64,000 bases of DNA from Roseithermus sacchariphilus (GTDB lineage Bacteria > Bacteroidota > Rhodothermia > Rhodothermales > MEBIC09517): assembly GCA_003285105.1 (NCBI GenBank), contig CP030158.1, forward strand, positions 4,512,449-4,576,448, in the 5' to 3' direction. The notes under the pieces are model-generated. The model did not search any database and was not told where the DNA came from. It saw only the letters and a list, made by a program, of their open reading frames with translations. A program made the translations under genes and the position numbers. The stretch's first letter is position 1; every line of letters starts with the position of its first letter. This document shows, one piece after another, positions 13,374 through 23,387 of the stretch.

Positions 13374-14345
13374 ATGCCAGAACGCATCGCCTCCCCCCGT
13401 GCCACCCTCAGCAAACTGGAACTGCGCTGCCCACCCCTGCCGCAGACGCTGATGGAGGCCATGGAACTGATCGAACAGCCGGAAAAGCTGGAAGTCGGCC
13501 CCGTCACCGAGATGGTCCAGCGCGACCCGATCGTGGTGGCCCGGCTGCTCCAGATCGTCAACTCCGCCTATTACGGGCTGCGCCACCCGATCAGCAGCGC
13601 CGACCGCGCCGTGGTCATGCTCGGCCCGGTGGCCGTCGCCGGCATCGTGGTGGGCATGAACATGCTCAAGCTGCGCTCGATGCTTGACGGGCCGGCGGCC
13701 CCCTGCTTCCTGCGCCTCATCCGCCATAGCGTCGCCACGGCCTTCCTCACCCGGCACCTGCTCGATCACGACGCCGCCCGCTCGATGACCCGCATCGGCG
13801 TCGGCTTCACCTCCGGGCTGCTCCACGACTTCGGGAAGATCATCCTGGTCTACAACTTCCCCGAGGAAGCCGTCCGCTTCTACGACAACCGCGCCCTGGA
13901 CGAGCAGCTCCTCGACGAGGACGAGCGGCACCTGGAGCAACTGCTCTTCGGCTGCGACCACACCGAAGCCGGCGAATACGTGGCTCGCAAGCTGCGCTTC
14001 CCCGATACGCTGACGGACGTCATCCGCCTGCACCACGAACCCGACCGCGCCTCCGGCTCGCCGGAGACGGACCGCGTGGTGCGCGCCGTGGCCGTGGCCA
14101 ACCTGGCCGCGACGGCCATGGGCTATGCCTTCACGCACGAGCGCACCTGGGAGGCCTGCCAGGAGGCCCCGGTCTGGTCGGCCTTCCTCGCCGCCCAGGC
14201 CGCCCGCTACCCGAGCGCCGACGCCCTCCTGGCCGACCTGCTCGCCCAGCAGCCTCACCTCGATGCCTACGTGCACGAACTGACGAGCACCACGGACCCG
14301 GAGCACGTGCAACGCCGCGTGCCCTCCCCCGGGCGCCCGGACTGA
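13374..14345 (+). CDS. HDOD-domain signalling protein
   Basis: 323 residues. An HDOD domain spans residues about 15-215: PPLPQTLMEAMELIEQPE, then VTEMVQRDPIVVARLLQIVNSAYYGLRHPISSADRAVVMLGPVAVAGIVVGM, the signature of the family. An HD-like motif GLLHDFGK is present, but the set of metal ligands looks incomplete, as usual for HDOD proteins, which are generally not active phosphodiesterases. Such proteins are common in motility clusters and modulate two-component or c-di-GMP signalling. It is the last gene before a strong terminator (14387-14425), so it closes the flgF operon. Confidence 0.85.
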   Translation: MPERIASPRATLSKLELRCPPLPQTLMEAMELIEQPEKLEVGPVTEMVQRDPIVVARLLQIVNSAYYGLRHPISSADRAVVMLGPVAVAGIVVGMNMLKLRSMLDGPAAPCFLRLIRHSVATAFLTRHLLDHDAARSMTRIGVGFTSGLLHDFGKIILVYNFPEEAVRFYDNRALDEQLLDEDERHLEQLLFGCDHTEAGEYVARKLRFPDTLTDVIRLHHEPDRASGSPETDRVVRAVAVANLAATAMGYAFTHERTWEACQEAPVWSAFLAAQAARYPSADALLADLLAQQPHLDAYVHELTSTTDPEHVQRRVPSPGRPD

Positions 14346-14386
14346 CCCGAATGCCCGCGGCCGTACCACCGGTCTTCGCCATCCCG

Positions 14387-14425
14387 GCCCGGCTTCCCTG
14401 ACGGAGGCCGGGCTTCTTTCGTTTG
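14387..14425 (+). terminator. intrinsic terminator closing the flgF-HDOD operon
   Basis: An 11-bp GC-rich stem (arms 14387-14397 and 14403-14413, with one T-G pair) and a 5-nt loop is followed by TTCTTTCGTTT. It separates the flg operon from flagellin 1. Confidence 0.75.
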
Positions 14426-14525
14426 TGGCCCGTTTCAGGCCATTCCGGGCGGCGTCATGCCCCCATCGCCCCTTCCCGACGCCCCCCCGGCACCGCCCTC
14501 TGAAATCCGAGTCATCGCCCGGATT

Positions 14526-14552
14526 TAAGAAACCTCAGGACCGCGACGATAC
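14526..14552 (+). promoter_or_regulatory. sigma28 (FliA)-type promoter for flagellin 1
   Basis: TTTAAG, 15 nt, GACGATAC. The last six of the TAAG...CGATA block match the FliA consensus (TAAA-N15-GCCGATAA). The same pattern recurs before fliS, flgM, cheW and motA. A start near 14559 gives a leader of about 55 nt to the ATG at 14614. Confidence 0.6.
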
Positions 14553-14613
14553 ACGTCGCAGACCCAAAACGCCAGAACCACAACCGTCTTCAACACTCAA
14601 CTACGTACAAGCC

Positions 14614-15450
14614 ATGGGAGCTTTTGGAGACTTGACCCGAATCAACACCAACATCCAGGCCCTGGATTCCCTGCGGATGCTGCAGCGGACGAACCAGGAA
14701 CTGGGGGACCGCCAGCTGCGCCTCGCGACGGGCAGCCGCATCAACCGGGCCGAAGACGACTCGGCCGGCTACTCGATCTCGAAGAAGCTGGAGGCCCGCG
14801 TCCGCGGTCAGGCCCAGGCCCTGGCCAACATCGGCGACGCCAAGAGCATGCTCACCGTCGCCGAAGGGGCCCTGGGCACCGTCATGGACATCCTCCAGAC
14901 GATGAAGGAAAAGGTCATCCAGGCCGCCAACGACACGATGGGGGTGGATGAGCGCAACGCCATCGAAAGCCAGCTCGACGCGCTGGCCGCCGAGATCGAC
15001 GACCTCATCGCCGACTCCCAGTACAACAGCCGGTCCCTGTTCACCACCACGCCGCTGACCTTCCAGGTCAACGCCGAAGCCGGGGACACCTTTACCGTCA
15101 CCATCGGCACGCTCTCGGCCGCCATGCTGCAGGTGTCCGATGCCGACCTGGTGGTGACCGATGCCTCGAACGCCTCCACGGCGCTCGCGAACATCGACAA
15201 CGCCATCCAGACGCTGGCCGACACGCTGGCCTCGATCGGTGACGATCAGAAGCGCCTCACCTTCAAGATGGACAACCTCTCCATCTCGATGAACAACTAC
15301 GAGGCCGCGCGCAGCCGCATCGAAGACGCCGACTTCGCCAAGGAGCAGATGGAGATCGTCAAGCTGCAGATCCTGCAGCAGACCGGCACGGCCTCGCTCG
15401 CGCAGGCCAACGCGTCTCCGCAGGCCGTGCTCTCGCTCTTCGGCGGTTAA
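14614..15450 (+). CDS. fliC: flagellin 1
   Basis: 278 residues: a short flagellin with the conserved D0/D1 helices and almost no surface-exposed insert. N-terminus TRINTNIQALDSLRMLQRTNQELGDRQLRLATGSRINRAEDDSAGYSISKKLEARVRGQ; C-terminus ARSRIEDADFAKEQMEIVKLQILQQTGTASLAQANASPQAVLSLFGG. Exported by the type III apparatus and polymerised into the filament with FliS and FliD. It has its own sigma28-type promoter. It differs from the next two flagellins over the middle (residues 100-200) and ends in FGG where they end in F. The longer open frame upstream (from 14425) crosses the promoter and is not coding. Confidence 0.95.
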   Translation: MGAFGDLTRINTNIQALDSLRMLQRTNQELGDRQLRLATGSRINRAEDDSAGYSISKKLEARVRGQAQALANIGDAKSMLTVAEGALGTVMDILQTMKEKVIQAANDTMGVDERNAIESQLDALAAEIDDLIADSQYNSRSLFTTTPLTFQVNAEAGDTFTVTIGTLSAAMLQVSDADLVVTDASNASTALANIDNAIQTLADTLASIGDDQKRLTFKMDNLSISMNNYEAARSRIEDADFAKEQMEIVKLQILQQTGTASLAQANASPQAVLSLFGG

Positions 15451-15588
15451 GCCCTCTAGTGTTTCCGAATCTCACGCTGCCAACGAACGGCTGAACTCCA
15501 TCATTGCAATCCACATAGCGCCCGGGCGGATCATCGAGTGCTCGCATCCTCGGTAACCCGGCCAGCGCCTCCGATCTTCACAACCCCA

Positions 15589-16434
15589 ACATGGAGGAGT
15601 TAGACCATGTCATTCGGAGACCTGACTCGAATCAGCACCAACCTGCAGGCGCTGGACTCGCTCCGCACCCTGCGCAACACCAACAGCGAGCTCGGCCTGC
15701 GCCAGCTCCGCCTGGCCACCGGTAGCCGCCTCAACCGCGCCGAAGACGACTCGGCCGGCTACTCCATCGCCAAAAAACTCGAAGCCCGCGTCCGCGGTCA
15801 GGCCCAGGCCCTGGCCAACATCGGCGACGCCAAGAGCATGCTCACCGTCGCCGAAGGCAGCCTCAACACCGTCATGGACATCCTCCAGACGATGAAGGAG
15901 AAGGTCATCCAGGCCGGCAACGACACGCTCGGCTCCTCCGAGCGCACCGCCATCGAGAACCAGCTCGACGCGCTCTCCAGCGAAATCACCGACATCATCA
16001 ACGACACCACCTACAACGGCAACAGCCTCTTTACCTCGACCGCGCTGACCTTCCAGGTCAACGCCGAGTCCGGAGACACCTTCTCCTCTACCATCGGCAC
16101 GCTCTCGGTGGCCGGCCTCGGCGTCGACGACAACAGCATCGTCGTCTCCAGCGCGGCGAGTGCCGCCGTGGCCCTCTCGAACATCGACGCCGCCATCCAG
16201 ACCATCGCCGACACGATGGCCTCCATCGGCGACGACCAGAAGCGCCTCAGCTTCAAGATGGACAACCTCTCCATCTCGATGAACAACTACGAGGCCGCGC
16301 GCAGCCGCATCGAGGATGCCGACTTTGCCAAGGAGCAGATGGAGATCGTCAAGCTGCAGATCCTGCAGCAGACCGGCACGGCCTCGCTCGCGCAGGCCAA
16401 CGCCGCCCCGCAGGCCGTCCTCTCCCTCTTCTAA
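15589..16434 (+). repeat. direct repeat unit, copy 1 (flagellin 2 with its ribosome site)
   Basis: Copy 1 of a duplication whose second copy is at 16595-17440, offset exactly 1006 bp. Both begin at the same leader with GGAGGAG, nine bases before the ATG, and run to the flagellin stop. The two are almost base-identical except for the segment coding for residues about 178-198. Confidence 0.9.
15607..16434 (+). CDS. fliC: flagellin 2
   Basis: 275 residues. GGAGGAG before the ATG is one of the few strong Shine-Dalgarno sites in the window, consistent with high expression. Sequence outline as flagellin 1: N-terminal helices with LRQLRLATGSRLNRAEDDSAGYSIAKKLEARV, C-terminal RIEDADFAKEQMEIVKLQILQQTGTASLAQANAAPQAVLSLF. 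The middle reads GVDDNSIVVSSAASAAVALSNIDAAIQ, differing from copy 3. No clear sigma28 promoter lies in the 156 bp upstream (a TAAC...CCGATC pair has only 12 nt between the parts), so it may be read through from flagellin 1 or use an atypical site. Confidence 0.95.
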   Translation: MSFGDLTRISTNLQALDSLRTLRNTNSELGLRQLRLATGSRLNRAEDDSAGYSIAKKLEARVRGQAQALANIGDAKSMLTVAEGSLNTVMDILQTMKEKVIQAGNDTLGSSERTAIENQLDALSSEITDIINDTTYNGNSLFTSTALTFQVNAESGDTFSSTIGTLSVAGLGVDDNSIVVSSAASAAVALSNIDAAIQTIADTMASIGDDQKRLSFKMDNLSISMNNYEAARSRIEDADFAKEQMEIVKLQILQQTGTASLAQANAAPQAVLSLF

Positions 16435-16511
16435 CGATCTCGCCCGTGACGCCGCGCTGACCGGCCGGCCCGCCGGCGCCCGTTCACGGCACACATAACC
16501 GGGCAGTCCAC

Positions 16512-16553
16512 AAAAAAAGGGCTGGAGCAGTGCTCGCATCACCACTCCAGCCC
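16512..16553 (-). terminator. hairpin with T-tract on the minus strand, between flagellins 2 and 3
   Basis: A perfect 9-bp stem (GGGCTGGAG 16519-16527, CTCCAGCCC 16545-16553) is preceded on the plus strand by seven A (16512-16518). Read on the minus strand it is a stem followed by seven T, a standard intrinsic terminator, although no minus-strand gene is seen next to it. Confidence 0.55.
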
Positions 16554-16594
16554 AGATGGGCTGCTTCAAGTACACGTCCCGCACACAAACGATT

Positions 16595-17440
16595 ACATGG
16601 AGGAGTTAGACCATGTCATTCGGAGACCTGACTCGAATCAGCACCAACCTGCAGGCGCTGGACTCGCTCCGCACCCTGCGCAACACCAACAGCGAGCTCG
16701 GCCTGCGCCAGCTCCGCCTGGCCACCGGTAGCCGCCTCAACCGCGCCGAAGACGACTCGGCCGGCTACTCCATCGCCAAAAAACTCGAAGCCCGCGTCCG
16801 CGGTCAGGCCCAGGCCCTGGCCAACATCGGCGACGCCAAGAGCATGCTCACCGTCGCCGAAGGCAGCCTCAACACCGTCATGGACATCCTCCAGACGATG
16901 AAGGAAAAGGTCATCCAGGCCGGCAACGACACGCTCGGCTCCTCCGAGCGCACCGCCATCGAGAACCAGCTCGACGCGCTCTCCAGCGAAATCACCGACA
17001 TCATCAACGACACCACCTACAACGGCAACAGCCTCTTTACCTCGACCGCGCTGACCTTCCAGGTCAACGCCGAGTCCGGAGACACCTTCTCCTCTACCAT
17101 CGGCACGCTCTCGGTGGCCGGCCTCGGCGTCGACGACGCCAGCATCGTCGTGACCGATGCCTCGAACGCCTCCACGGCGCTCTCGAGGATCGACGCCGCC
17201 ATCCAGACCATCGCCGACACGATGGCCTCCATCGGCGACGACCAGAAGCGCCTCAGCTTCAAGATGGACAACCTCTCCATCTCGATGAACAACTACGAGG
17301 CCGCGCGCAGCCGCATCGAGGACGCCGACTTCGCCAAGGAGCAGATGGAGATCGTCAAGCTGCAGATCCTGCAGCAGACCGGCACGGCCTCGCTCGCGCA
17401 GGCCAACGCCGCCCCGCAGGCCGTCCTCTCCCTCTTCTAA
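16595..17440 (+). repeat. direct repeat unit, copy 2 (flagellin 3 with its ribosome site)
   Basis: Second copy of the 15589-16434 unit. Within it, 17150-17182 is a 33-bp tract identical to flagellin 1 (15154-15186) and different from flagellin 2, marking a conversion patch. Confidence 0.9.
16613..17440 (+). CDS. fliC: flagellin 3, mosaic of flagellins 2 and 1
   Basis: 275 residues, identical to flagellin 2 over about the first 175 residues and again at the C-terminus. The variable stretch reads GVDDASIVVTDASNASTALSRIDAAIQ; the VVTDASNASTAL part matches flagellin 1, not flagellin 2. It has the same GGAGGAG leader as flagellin 2. The differing residues fall in the only segment of these short flagellins likely to face outward, so the exchange may tune the filament surface. 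A terminator follows at 17541. Confidence 0.95.
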   Translation: MSFGDLTRISTNLQALDSLRTLRNTNSELGLRQLRLATGSRLNRAEDDSAGYSIAKKLEARVRGQAQALANIGDAKSMLTVAEGSLNTVMDILQTMKEKVIQAGNDTLGSSERTAIENQLDALSSEITDIINDTTYNGNSLFTSTALTFQVNAESGDTFSSTIGTLSVAGLGVDDASIVVTDASNASTALSRIDAAIQTIADTMASIGDDQKRLSFKMDNLSISMNNYEAARSRIEDADFAKEQMEIVKLQILQQTGTASLAQANAAPQAVLSLF

Positions 17441-17540
17441 GGCAACACCGACTATCCGCGCGGAGACGACTGGTTCTGGCGATTCGGATCGTCTCACTCT
17501 ACTCCCATGGACCGAGTGGCCGTGCGCGGGGCCACTCCCG

Positions 17541-17580
17541 GCAGCCTCCCCGACCCCGGGGGGGCTGCTGTCGTTTGGGC
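17541..17580 (+). terminator. terminator after the flagellin genes
   Basis: An 11-bp stem (17541-17551 with 17558-17568, one T-G pair) and a 6-nt loop is followed by TGTCGTTTG. A second small hairpin (AGTGGCC 17515-17521 with GGCCACT 17530-17536) lies just before it. Together they end the flagellin transcripts ahead of the convergent glycosyltransferase. Confidence 0.65.
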
Positions 17581-17607
17581 GGGGGCCATATGGAGGCTTC
17601 CGGGGGG

Positions 17608-18807
17608 TCATGCGCGGGCGCCCTCCAGCTCGGCGCTGACGATACTGGTTTGCAGCGAGGCGATCAGGGCTTTGATGGTGCGGGCCTCGCACGCGGGTTG
17701 CGCCTTGAGGTTGTGGAAGGCCGCCGCGTGGCGGGGCAGGTTCAGCCGCTCACACAGGCGGGCCAGCAGGCCGAGCAGCACCTCCGGGTTGAGCGCGAAG
17801 CGCGCAGCGTGCTGATGCGCCTCGTTCATGTTGTAGGCCTCCAGCAGCATCAGCATCCCATCCCCGATCTGCCGGGCCAGAAGCAGGGCCAGCCCGGTCG
17901 TGAAAAACCCGATCGGCTCGGTGCGGTCGATGCTCAGCATCGCGTTGGCGTGGAAGAGCGCCATCGAGGCCTCCTCCAGCTTCAGCGCCGTCTGCGTGGC
18001 GAGCAGGCGGGTATAAAAGGCATTCTCCGGCGAGAGCTGCCCGTAGTCGAGCTGGTTGAAGATGGCAGCGGCTTCGGGATAGCGCTCCAGCACGAAGTAA
18101 ACCAGCCCCAGCTGATAGCCATAGTAGGCCTGGTACTGCGGCGAGCGGGGCTGCTCGAACTCGGCCCGGAGCAGATCGATCCGCGCCGCATATTTCTTTT
18201 TCATGTCCGCCGGTTCGAGGGCATAGCCGGTGTGCACCACCTCGGCCTCCAGCTTCAGGATCTGCGCGCCCGTGCGCTGGGCATAGGCCACGACGGCTTC
18301 CCGGATCTGGTTGTGCACCCGCCCTTCGTAGCGCAACGAAGGGTCGTTCACGAAGATGCGCTCCTGCCAGAAGCGATCCGCGGCAACGATCTGGTTGCCA
18401 CGCATCAGGTTCTTGATGGGCAACAGGATGGCCGCCAGATGCGGGCGCGTGAGGGCCGCACGGATACGGCTCCAGTGCAGCGGCTCCGGCAGATACTCGT
18501 CCCCGTCCAGCACCATGATGAAGTCGCCCGAGGCCCGGTCGAAGCTGTAGTTGCGGGCCACGGCGAACGAGTTCGGCCACTCGATCTCCTCGATGACGTC
18601 GGCATACGACCGGGCGATGGCCTGCGTCCCGTCGGTCGACCCCGTGTCGATCACGACGATCTCGTCGACGTGCGGCCGGGCCAGGCGGAGGCACTGATCG
18701 AGGGTCTGCGCCTCGTTGCGGACGATCATGCAGAGCGACAGCCTCGGGCGGCGAGACGAGACGGCGGCGGACGAGACGGCGGCGGATGGTTTGGGAGACG
18801 TATCCAT
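17608..18807 (-). CDS. GT2 glycosyltransferase with C-terminal TPR, candidate flagellin glycosyltransferase
   Basis: 399 residues. Family 2 GT-A domain at residues about 22-240: RLSLCMIVRNEAQTLDQCLRLA, DEIVVIDTGSTDGT, then the metal-binding LDGDEYLPEP and LRYEGRVHNQI. After it come helical repeats (YQLGLVYFVLERYPEAAAIFNQLDYGQ and later blocks), giving a GT-plus-TPR architecture as in several flagellin glycosyltransferases. It sits between three flagellin genes and fliS, on the opposite strand, which strongly hints that it glycosylates flagellin before export; this is inference. The N-terminus has a perfect 15-bp tandem repeat (18755-18784) encoding SAAVS twice, a possible slippage site. The ATG at 18807 precedes the domain by about 20 disordered residues. 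Confidence 0.82.
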   Translation of the reverse strand: MDTSPKPSAAVSSAAVSSRRPRLSLCMIVRNEAQTLDQCLRLARPHVDEIVVIDTGSTDGTQAIARSYADVIEEIEWPNSFAVARNYSFDRASGDFIMVLDGDEYLPEPLHWSRIRAALTRPHLAAILLPIKNLMRGNQIVAADRFWQERIFVNDPSLRYEGRVHNQIREAVVAYAQRTGAQILKLEAEVVHTGYALEPADMKKKYAARIDLLRAEFEQPRSPQYQAYYGYQLGLVYFVLERYPEAAAIFNQLDYGQLSPENAFYTRLLATQTALKLEEASMALFHANAMLSIDRTEPIGFFTTGLALLLARQIGDGMLMLLEAYNMNEAHQHAARFALNPEVLLGLLARLCERLNLPRHAAAFHNLKAQPACEARTIKALIASLQTSIVSAELEGARA

Positions 18808-21989: not shown

Positions 21990-23387
21990 CTATGAGATCA
22001 GACCCTGCTCGCGGTACCGTTTCAGCTTGTTGCGGATCGTGCGGGCGCTGATGCCCAGCCGCTCCGCGGCCAGTTGCTGGTTGTTGTTCGTCTCCGAGAG
22101 GGCCTGGATGATCATGTAGCGCTCCATGTCCTCGATGGTCTGGAGCTTGGCCCCCTCGCCCCGCTTGACCTCCACGGCCGTATCGAGGTTGGCATCCGAG
22201 AAGAAGTCGTTGAGCACGTCGCCCGCCTCGATCACCGACCGATCGGCCGAGAGCAGCACGCCGCGCTGCACCATGTTCTCGAGCTGGCGCACGTTGCCCG
22301 GCCAGGGATGGGTCTGGAAGGCCCGCATCAGTTCCGGGGCAATGGTCTTGTCCGGCAGGCCGTAGAGCTCGCAGTACTTCTTGACGAAATGCCGGGCCAG
22401 CAGCGGCACGTCCGAGATGCGCTCGCGCAACGGAGGCACCGAGAGCGGAAACACCGAGAGACGGTGGTAGAGGTCCTCGCGAAAGACGCCTTCCTCGATG
22501 GCCTCGGCCAGGTTGCGGTTGCTGGTGGCAATGATCCGCACGTCGACCTTCTGCACCTCCGTCGACCCCACCTTCTGGAACTCCCGCTCCTGCAGCACGC
22601 GCAGCAGCTTGGCCTGAATCGGCAGGTCGATCTCCGTGATCTCGTCCAGCAGCAGCGTACCGCCGTCCGCGCGCTCGAAGGCCCCGGTCATGTCCTCGAT
22701 GGCCCCCGTAAAGGCGCCCTTGCGGTGCCCGAAGAGGTGACTCTCGACCAGCTCGCGGGGCAGGTTGGCACAGTTGAGCGTGACGTACGGCCCGGAGGCA
22801 CGATCGCTCATCTGGTGGATGAGCCGCGCCAGGATCTCTTTGCCCGTCCCGCTTTCCCCCTGGATGAACACCGGCGCCTTGTTCTGGCTGATCCGGGGGA
22901 GCATGTCCTTCAGGGCCTGGATGGACGGGTGCTCGCCGATGTACTCCACCGTCACGGCCGGCTTCCGGGCGCTGCTCCGGCGCGTTTTCTTCTCCGGAGC
23001 GGGTGCCTCCTCGCCGGCCGGAGTCGCCAGGCAGGCGCGCACCCGCTCGACCAGCTCCGTCGTCGAAAACGGCTTGGGAATGTAGTCGATGGCCCCGTTC
23101 TGCATCGTGCGCACGGCATGCTGCACGTTGGCGTGCGCCGTGATCATGATCACCTTCGTCTGCGGATGCTCCTGCCGGATGTAGGACAACAGCTCGATCC
23201 CGTCCATGTCCGGCATCATGAAGTCCGTGACGACCAGGTCGTAGGGCGTCTCTTTCAGCAACTCAATCGCCTGGATCGCATTGGTGCAGGTGGTGACGTG
23301 GATGCCGTGCCGGGTGAAGAGCCGTTCGAACAGGCCGTGCAAGAGCTGCTCGTCATCGACGAAGAGAATCTGTGGCTGACGGTCCAT
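21990..23387 (-). CDS. sigma54-dependent response regulator, FleR/FlrC-like
   Basis: 465 residues in the NtrC architecture. Receiver domain residues 1-120 with phospho-acceptor Asp55 (VVTDFMMPDMDG) and Lys105. AAA+ domain about 150-390: Walker A GESGTGKE (177-184), the sigma54-contacting GAFTGA loop (224-229), LLLDEITEIDLPIQAKLLRVLQEREFQKVGS, and an arginine-finger region. C-terminal Fis-type HTH: NNQQLAAERLGISARTIRNKLKRYRE. It should activate sigma54-RNA polymerase at the middle-class flagellar promoters once phosphorylated by the kinase encoded upstream. Both genes read away from flgB. The only transcription activator in the window. Confidence 0.93.
   Translation of the reverse strand: MDRQPQILFVDDEQLLHGLFERLFTRHGIHVTTCTNAIQAIELLKETPYDLVVTDFMMPDMDGIELLSYIRQEHPQTKVIMITAHANVQHAVRTMQNGAIDYIPKPFSTTELVERVRACLATPAGEEAPAPEKKTRRSSARKPAVTVEYIGEHPSIQALKDMLPRISQNKAPVFIQGESGTGKEILARLIHQMSDRASGPYVTLNCANLPRELVESHLFGHRKGAFTGAIEDMTGAFERADGGTLLLDEITEIDLPIQAKLLRVLQEREFQKVGSTEVQKVDVRIIATSNRNLAEAIEEGVFREDLYHRLSVFPLSVPPLRERISDVPLLARHFVKKYCELYGLPDKTIAPELMRAFQTHPWPGNVRQLENMVQRGVLLSADRSVIEAGDVLNDFFSDANLDTAVEVKRGEGAKLQTIEDMERYMIIQALSETNNNQQLAAERLGISARTIRNKLKRYREQGLIS

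Follow-up and report, generated by a model that had tools for sequence, protein, structure and literature searches.

Sequence evidence for gene conversion among three tandem flagellin genes of Roseithermus sacchariphilus

Three tandem flagellin genes and a mosaic third copy

The window analyzed here is a stretch of 64,000 nt from Roseithermus sacchariphilus (contig CP030158.1, positions 4,512,449-4,576,448 of the forward strand; coordinates below are positions in this window), taken from an assembly that forms a single contig of 4.81 Mb with a completeness of 99.98%. It contains three flagellin genes in tandem on the plus strand: the A-type f1 (14614-15450 including the stop codon, 278 aa), the B-type f2 (15607-16434 including the stop codon, 275 aa), whose middle, VSSAASAAVAL, is consensus-like, and the B-type f3 (16613-17440 including the stop codon, 275 aa), an open reading frame found to be a mosaic by site-by-site comparison with f1 and f2. 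Both Flagellin_N and Flagellin_C of Pfam were recognized in f1 (102.8 and 75.6 bits) and f3 (108.2 and 76.3 bits), far above the curated cut-offs of 26.6 and 23. The predicted flagellin model has the D0-D1 filament fold, with a mean predicted local distance difference test score of 80.5; its best match among solved structures is the Kurthia filament 6t17 (template modelling score 0.83), and the closest folds also include the filaments of S. oneidensis FlaA and FlaB. In total, the genome encodes these three flagellins and FlgL, and no further flagellin copies.

The f2 and f3 genes are near-identical over two 846-bp blocks (15589-16434 and 16595-17440, plus strand), each consisting of an 18-bp leader and the coding region up to the stop codon. 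Our base-by-base comparison agrees exactly with the initial annotation of this DNA in placing them at an offset of exactly 1006 bp. The blocks differ at 20 sites, 17 of which are found within a 51-bp island (17138-17188, plus strand). Inside the island, a 33-bp patch of f3 (17150-17182, plus strand) comprises exactly 11 codons, residues 180-190 (VTDASNASTAL), and is identical to f1 at 15154-15186 (plus strand), the likely donor, and not to f2, as had been noted before. Both edges of the patch adjoin sites where f3 agrees with f2 and differs from f1. The patch holds 13 consecutive polymorphic sites at which f1 and f3 agree, a run that never arose when the 152 polymorphic sites among the three genes were shuffled 20,000 times. 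Outside the patch we found two further f1-like sites (17138-17139), a change from AAC to AGG specific to f3 (17187-17188) and three isolated synonymous sites shared by f1 and f3 (16906, 17323 and 17332). Neither the f1/f3 type nor the f2 type of the patch occurs a second time elsewhere in the genome. Since the f2/f3 differences are clustered in-frame codons and the flanks of the genes differ, an artefact of repeat collapse during assembly seems unlikely.

The similarity of f1 to f2 and f3 is itself uneven, with 98-99% nucleotide identity over residues 216-262 and 71% over residues 1-40; a test on synonymous differences between f1 and f3 gave a Fisher p of 2e-5. To polarize the patch we used relatives from other Rhodothermales families, the window genome being the only one of its family in the comparison. 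Among 35 related sequences, residue 182 is Ser in 24, Thr in nine, Asn in one and a gap in one, and Asp in none; f2 keeps the consensus-like SAASA with Ser at 182, and Asp 182 is confined to f1 and f3. Because the relatives carry the f2-like state, and none of them Asp 182, the patch is well supported as a derived state that f1 and f3 share through exchange. Together with the tract statistics, this supports the earlier proposal that the third copy is a mosaic formed by gene conversion. We favor transfer from f1 to f3, without regarding it as proven, as the simplest direction given that f2 and f3 differ otherwise at only a few sites.

Flagellin pairs in other Rhodothermales

A tandem pair of flagellin genes, A upstream and B downstream, is present across many Rhodothermales families. 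The A genes have extra C-terminal residues and mostly lack a strong ribosome-binding site, and nearly all of them have a matching or near-matching sigma-28-like site 77-101 nt before the ATG. The B genes have a strong GGAGG and no sigma-28-like site upstream. In the window, the sigma-28-like promoter of f1 (TTTAAG-N14-16-GACGATA, 14524-14551, plus strand) lies at the position conserved before the A-type genes of relatives, and is the sole match to the strict form of the pattern in the entire 64 kb. With the pattern that we searched for, no sigma-54 sites were found upstream of the B genes.

In a tree of the gene ends, the A genes of many families cluster together. Pairing of the copies within a genome was rejected there for G022 (approximately unbiased (AU) test, p 0.002) and G029 (0.014) and was borderline for G010 (0.063), on a short alignment of 54 columns and for groups picked after the sequences had been inspected, the latter being true of all our tree tests. 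In a tree of the middles, paralogues instead cluster by genome in G010, G029, G002, G016 and G055; a clade of A genes was rejected (AU p 1.7e-13), as was a clade of the second copies of G010 and G022 (AU p 9.9e-9). Synonymous differences point the same way. The longest run without one spans 149 codons in G010 and 36 codons in G022 (0 of 5000 permutations each), and recent conversion was also detected in G055 (p 0.0004) and G016 (p 0.0036), with intermediate tracks in G001, G029 and G002. In several relatives, paralogues are thus closer than orthologues and contradict the history of the flanking parts, as expected for concerted evolution; in the window, the f1/f3 patch and the homogenized C-terminal part are its marks. 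The sequences indicate that ends and promoters are lineage-specific, and that the middle and C-terminal parts have been homogenized repeatedly in some genera and are stable in others.

The pairs of relatives also bear on the age of f2 and f3, for which a recent duplication had been proposed. The f1-f2 and f2-f3 spacers have in common only the 18-bp leader and a 12-bp motif, the latter at chance level (score 24, shuffled maximum 24). Between f2 and the leader of f3 there are approximately 157 bp of unique spacer, which two near-identical genes would not have between them had leader and gene simply been duplicated in tandem; this argues against a recent event of that kind. The f2-f3 spacer rather matches the one between A and B in G010 (score 32, against at most 24 after shuffling), including its hairpin. 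Because of this homology, f3 probably occupies the ancestral B position. A recent duplication therefore appears unlikely, and we rather take f2 and f3 for paralogues of greater age whose coding regions were homogenized recently.

The hairpin itself (16519-16553, plus strand), with an apical part GUG-CUCGCAU-CAC, is homologous to that of the A-B spacers of relatives. Across 11 sequences from the window and relatives, in which it precedes the B gene at a matching position, covariation is strong: 86% of cells are paired, a percentage that is partly by construction as the sequences were chosen as hairpins, with 33 double changes (0 of 500 shuffles). Rfam gave no credible match over 14300-17700, where the hairpin is absent from its families and a single snoRNA match stayed below threshold. 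A search of 114 genomes with a model of the hairpin gave no convincing new member outside the training genomes: it recovered G054, whose spacer nearly equals that of the training genome G053, and the extra matches had E values of 0.008-0.4 per genome, with seven such loci lacking a flagellin. The hairpin may act as a regulator of the B flagellin mRNA or mark a site where this mRNA is processed. In the f1-f2 spacer, AGTGCTCGCATC at 15537-15548 repeats the apical motif without the long stem; it is possibly a degenerate second copy, with a match that is at chance level by score.

Position of the patch and replaced middles

In the predicted model, the patch lies partly in the loop ahead of the C-terminal helix (residues 183-274) and partly in the first turns of this helix. 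Alignments with long flagellins break nearby, Salmonella 1ucu matching up to residue 181 of the query. Taken together, these two observations suggest that the patch sits at the outer end of D1, the point at which larger flagellins have their outer domains inserted.

Two Rhodothermus-like genomes, G002 and G016, illustrate what may happen at this position. Their A-B spacers differ at 2 of 137 bases and their orthologous genes share 92-96% nucleotide identity over residues 1-117, while their middles are only 43-45% identical in amino acids between the species and 92-99% identical inside each genome. The divergent middle of G002 has matches only within its own genus, save a weak one in G010. Evidently, a divergent middle replaced the old one and came to be carried by both copies, which demonstrates that conversion homogenizes and can make a surface change complete. 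Within one genus we observed two forms of the middle, in proteins of approximately 273 and 293 aa (L111 of G016, L121 of G002 and L122 of G055), each form being common to both tandem copies of a genome; in G056, the two forms lie on separate contigs, one on each, possibly through a mixed assembly.

The position at the tip of D1 and these replaced middles make an effect of conversion on the filament surface possible. The initial annotation had gone further and read the patch as a means of varying the filament surface, which the sequences do not establish: what the patch spreads is a variant that already existed, conversion reaches into the conserved core as well, and the clearest effect in relatives is homogenization. 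Conversion appears mainly to pass existing variants from copy to copy, chiefly making the copies alike.

Immediately beyond the end of f3, and still inside the flagellar cluster, the minus strand carries a family 2 glycosyltransferase gene (17608-18807), a candidate for a flagellin glycosylation enzyme. An NtrC-like response regulator, read from the translation of its open reading frame, is encoded near the cluster (21990-23387, minus strand).

Favored reading, alternatives and known systems

The sequences document that f3 is a mosaic, that the state it has in common with f1 is derived, and that independent relatives show the same process; the molecular mechanism, its direction and its effect on the filament we infer. 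We consider it quite probable that neighboring copies of an old A/B flagellin locus, now triple, overwrite each other by gene conversion. An old tandem pair, ancestral in the order, would have become a triple here, and homologous exchange of the RecA type between adjacent copies would repeatedly overwrite parts of their coding regions. Such exchange would have homogenized f2 and f3 almost fully, and the C-terminal quarter of f1 with both, and would have left, or placed, the f1-type 33-bp tract in f3. In this manner, the subunits of one filament would keep a matching core and surface, and separate promoters and leaders would keep expression distinct.

Several observations weigh against this reading. 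The tract is short and patchy, with an f1-like GCC 11 bp upstream followed by f2-like bases and the f3-only AGG just downstream, so that a single f1-to-f3 tract is not its sole interpretation. Eight of 15 other pairs (G098, G099, G053, G054, G020, G030, G007 and G086) have no sign of recent conversion, and shared patches, for which the initial annotation looked to related genomes, are accordingly found in some of the other families, with stable lineages lacking them in others. Lastly, the comparison covers other families of the order only, which places events within the lineage out of view.

The strongest alternative is a variant of the same process, in which the middle of f3 was already f1-like and a recent conversion from f2 to f3, or from f3 to f2, overwrote all but the 51-bp island. 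The patch would then be a leftover, and the f1-f3 exchange older and of open direction. This would account for 17 of the 20 differences lying inside 51 bp, and for the f3-only AGG and the f1-like GCC set apart by f2-like bases, a pattern that one insert of 33 bp leaves unexplained. However, it requires conversion on both flanks with the center spared, and still needs an f1-f3 exchange recent enough for 33 bp to stay unchanged. We regard it as a serious contender, at somewhat below even chances. A more speculative idea, which we hold to be rather improbable, is that the Rhodothermales A-B locus is a concerted surface-exchange module, in which ends, promoters and hairpin keep regulation separate and the exposed middle, once exchanged for a divergent one, is copied into both genes; if true, the whole filament surface would change together.

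A dedicated antigenic-variation system, in which exposed patches are shuffled as a defense against phages or grazers, would fit the patch at the tip of D1 and the two Rhodothermus-like genomes with near-identical spacers and the middle replaced in both copies. We nevertheless think it very unlikely, as the genome holds no silent cassettes that might serve as donors, the conversion tracts also cover the conserved core and make the copies alike, and patches are easiest to detect in the middle, where the copies differ most. About as improbable, and if anything slightly more so, is an f2 middle acquired from an outside donor with f1 and f3 ancestral: taken alone, the agreement of f1 and f3 is symmetrical, but the f2-like motif occurs in relatives of both lineages, Asp 182 is found in f1 and f3 only, and the genome has no other donor. 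Convergence or chance identity of the f1 and f3 tracts was rejected, because the identity extends to synonymous positions in the DNA and was matched in 0 of 20,000 permutations.

Conversion between neighboring copies, the reading we prefer, would make this locus a clear, if ordinary, instance of concerted evolution by a long-known process. In the literature that we searched, no publication dealt with exchange among the flagellins of Rhodothermales, and the locus contributes a clean case, spanning the order, of concerted evolution that is partial, with distinct ends and regulation and homogenized middle and C-terminal parts. It may also allow one to test if the subunits of a filament have to match and if a replaced surface reaches all copies. 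As in Campylobacter flaA/flaB, for which intragenomic recombination is described (Wassenaar, 1995; Harrington, 1997, as cited in a passage of PMC5126078), flagellin paralogues with different promoters exchange coding sequence. There, that passage gives sigma-28 for flaA and sigma-54 for flaB; here, the A upstream region is sigma-28-like and none was recognized for B. Unlike Campylobacter, the present case concerns another phylum and three copies, and exchange is read from sequence alone. In Shewanella putrefaciens, FlaA and FlaB are likewise two similar flagellins with different promoters, which build one filament and whose functional roles have been demonstrated (PMC6299084), a likeness that we draw from the genes only. 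The tandem fla genes of Alteromonadales are also closer within a genome than to their orthologues, which was ascribed to recurrent conversion (PMC6053082); set against these, G010 and G022 show A- and B-specific ends, promoters and spacers around homogenized middles.
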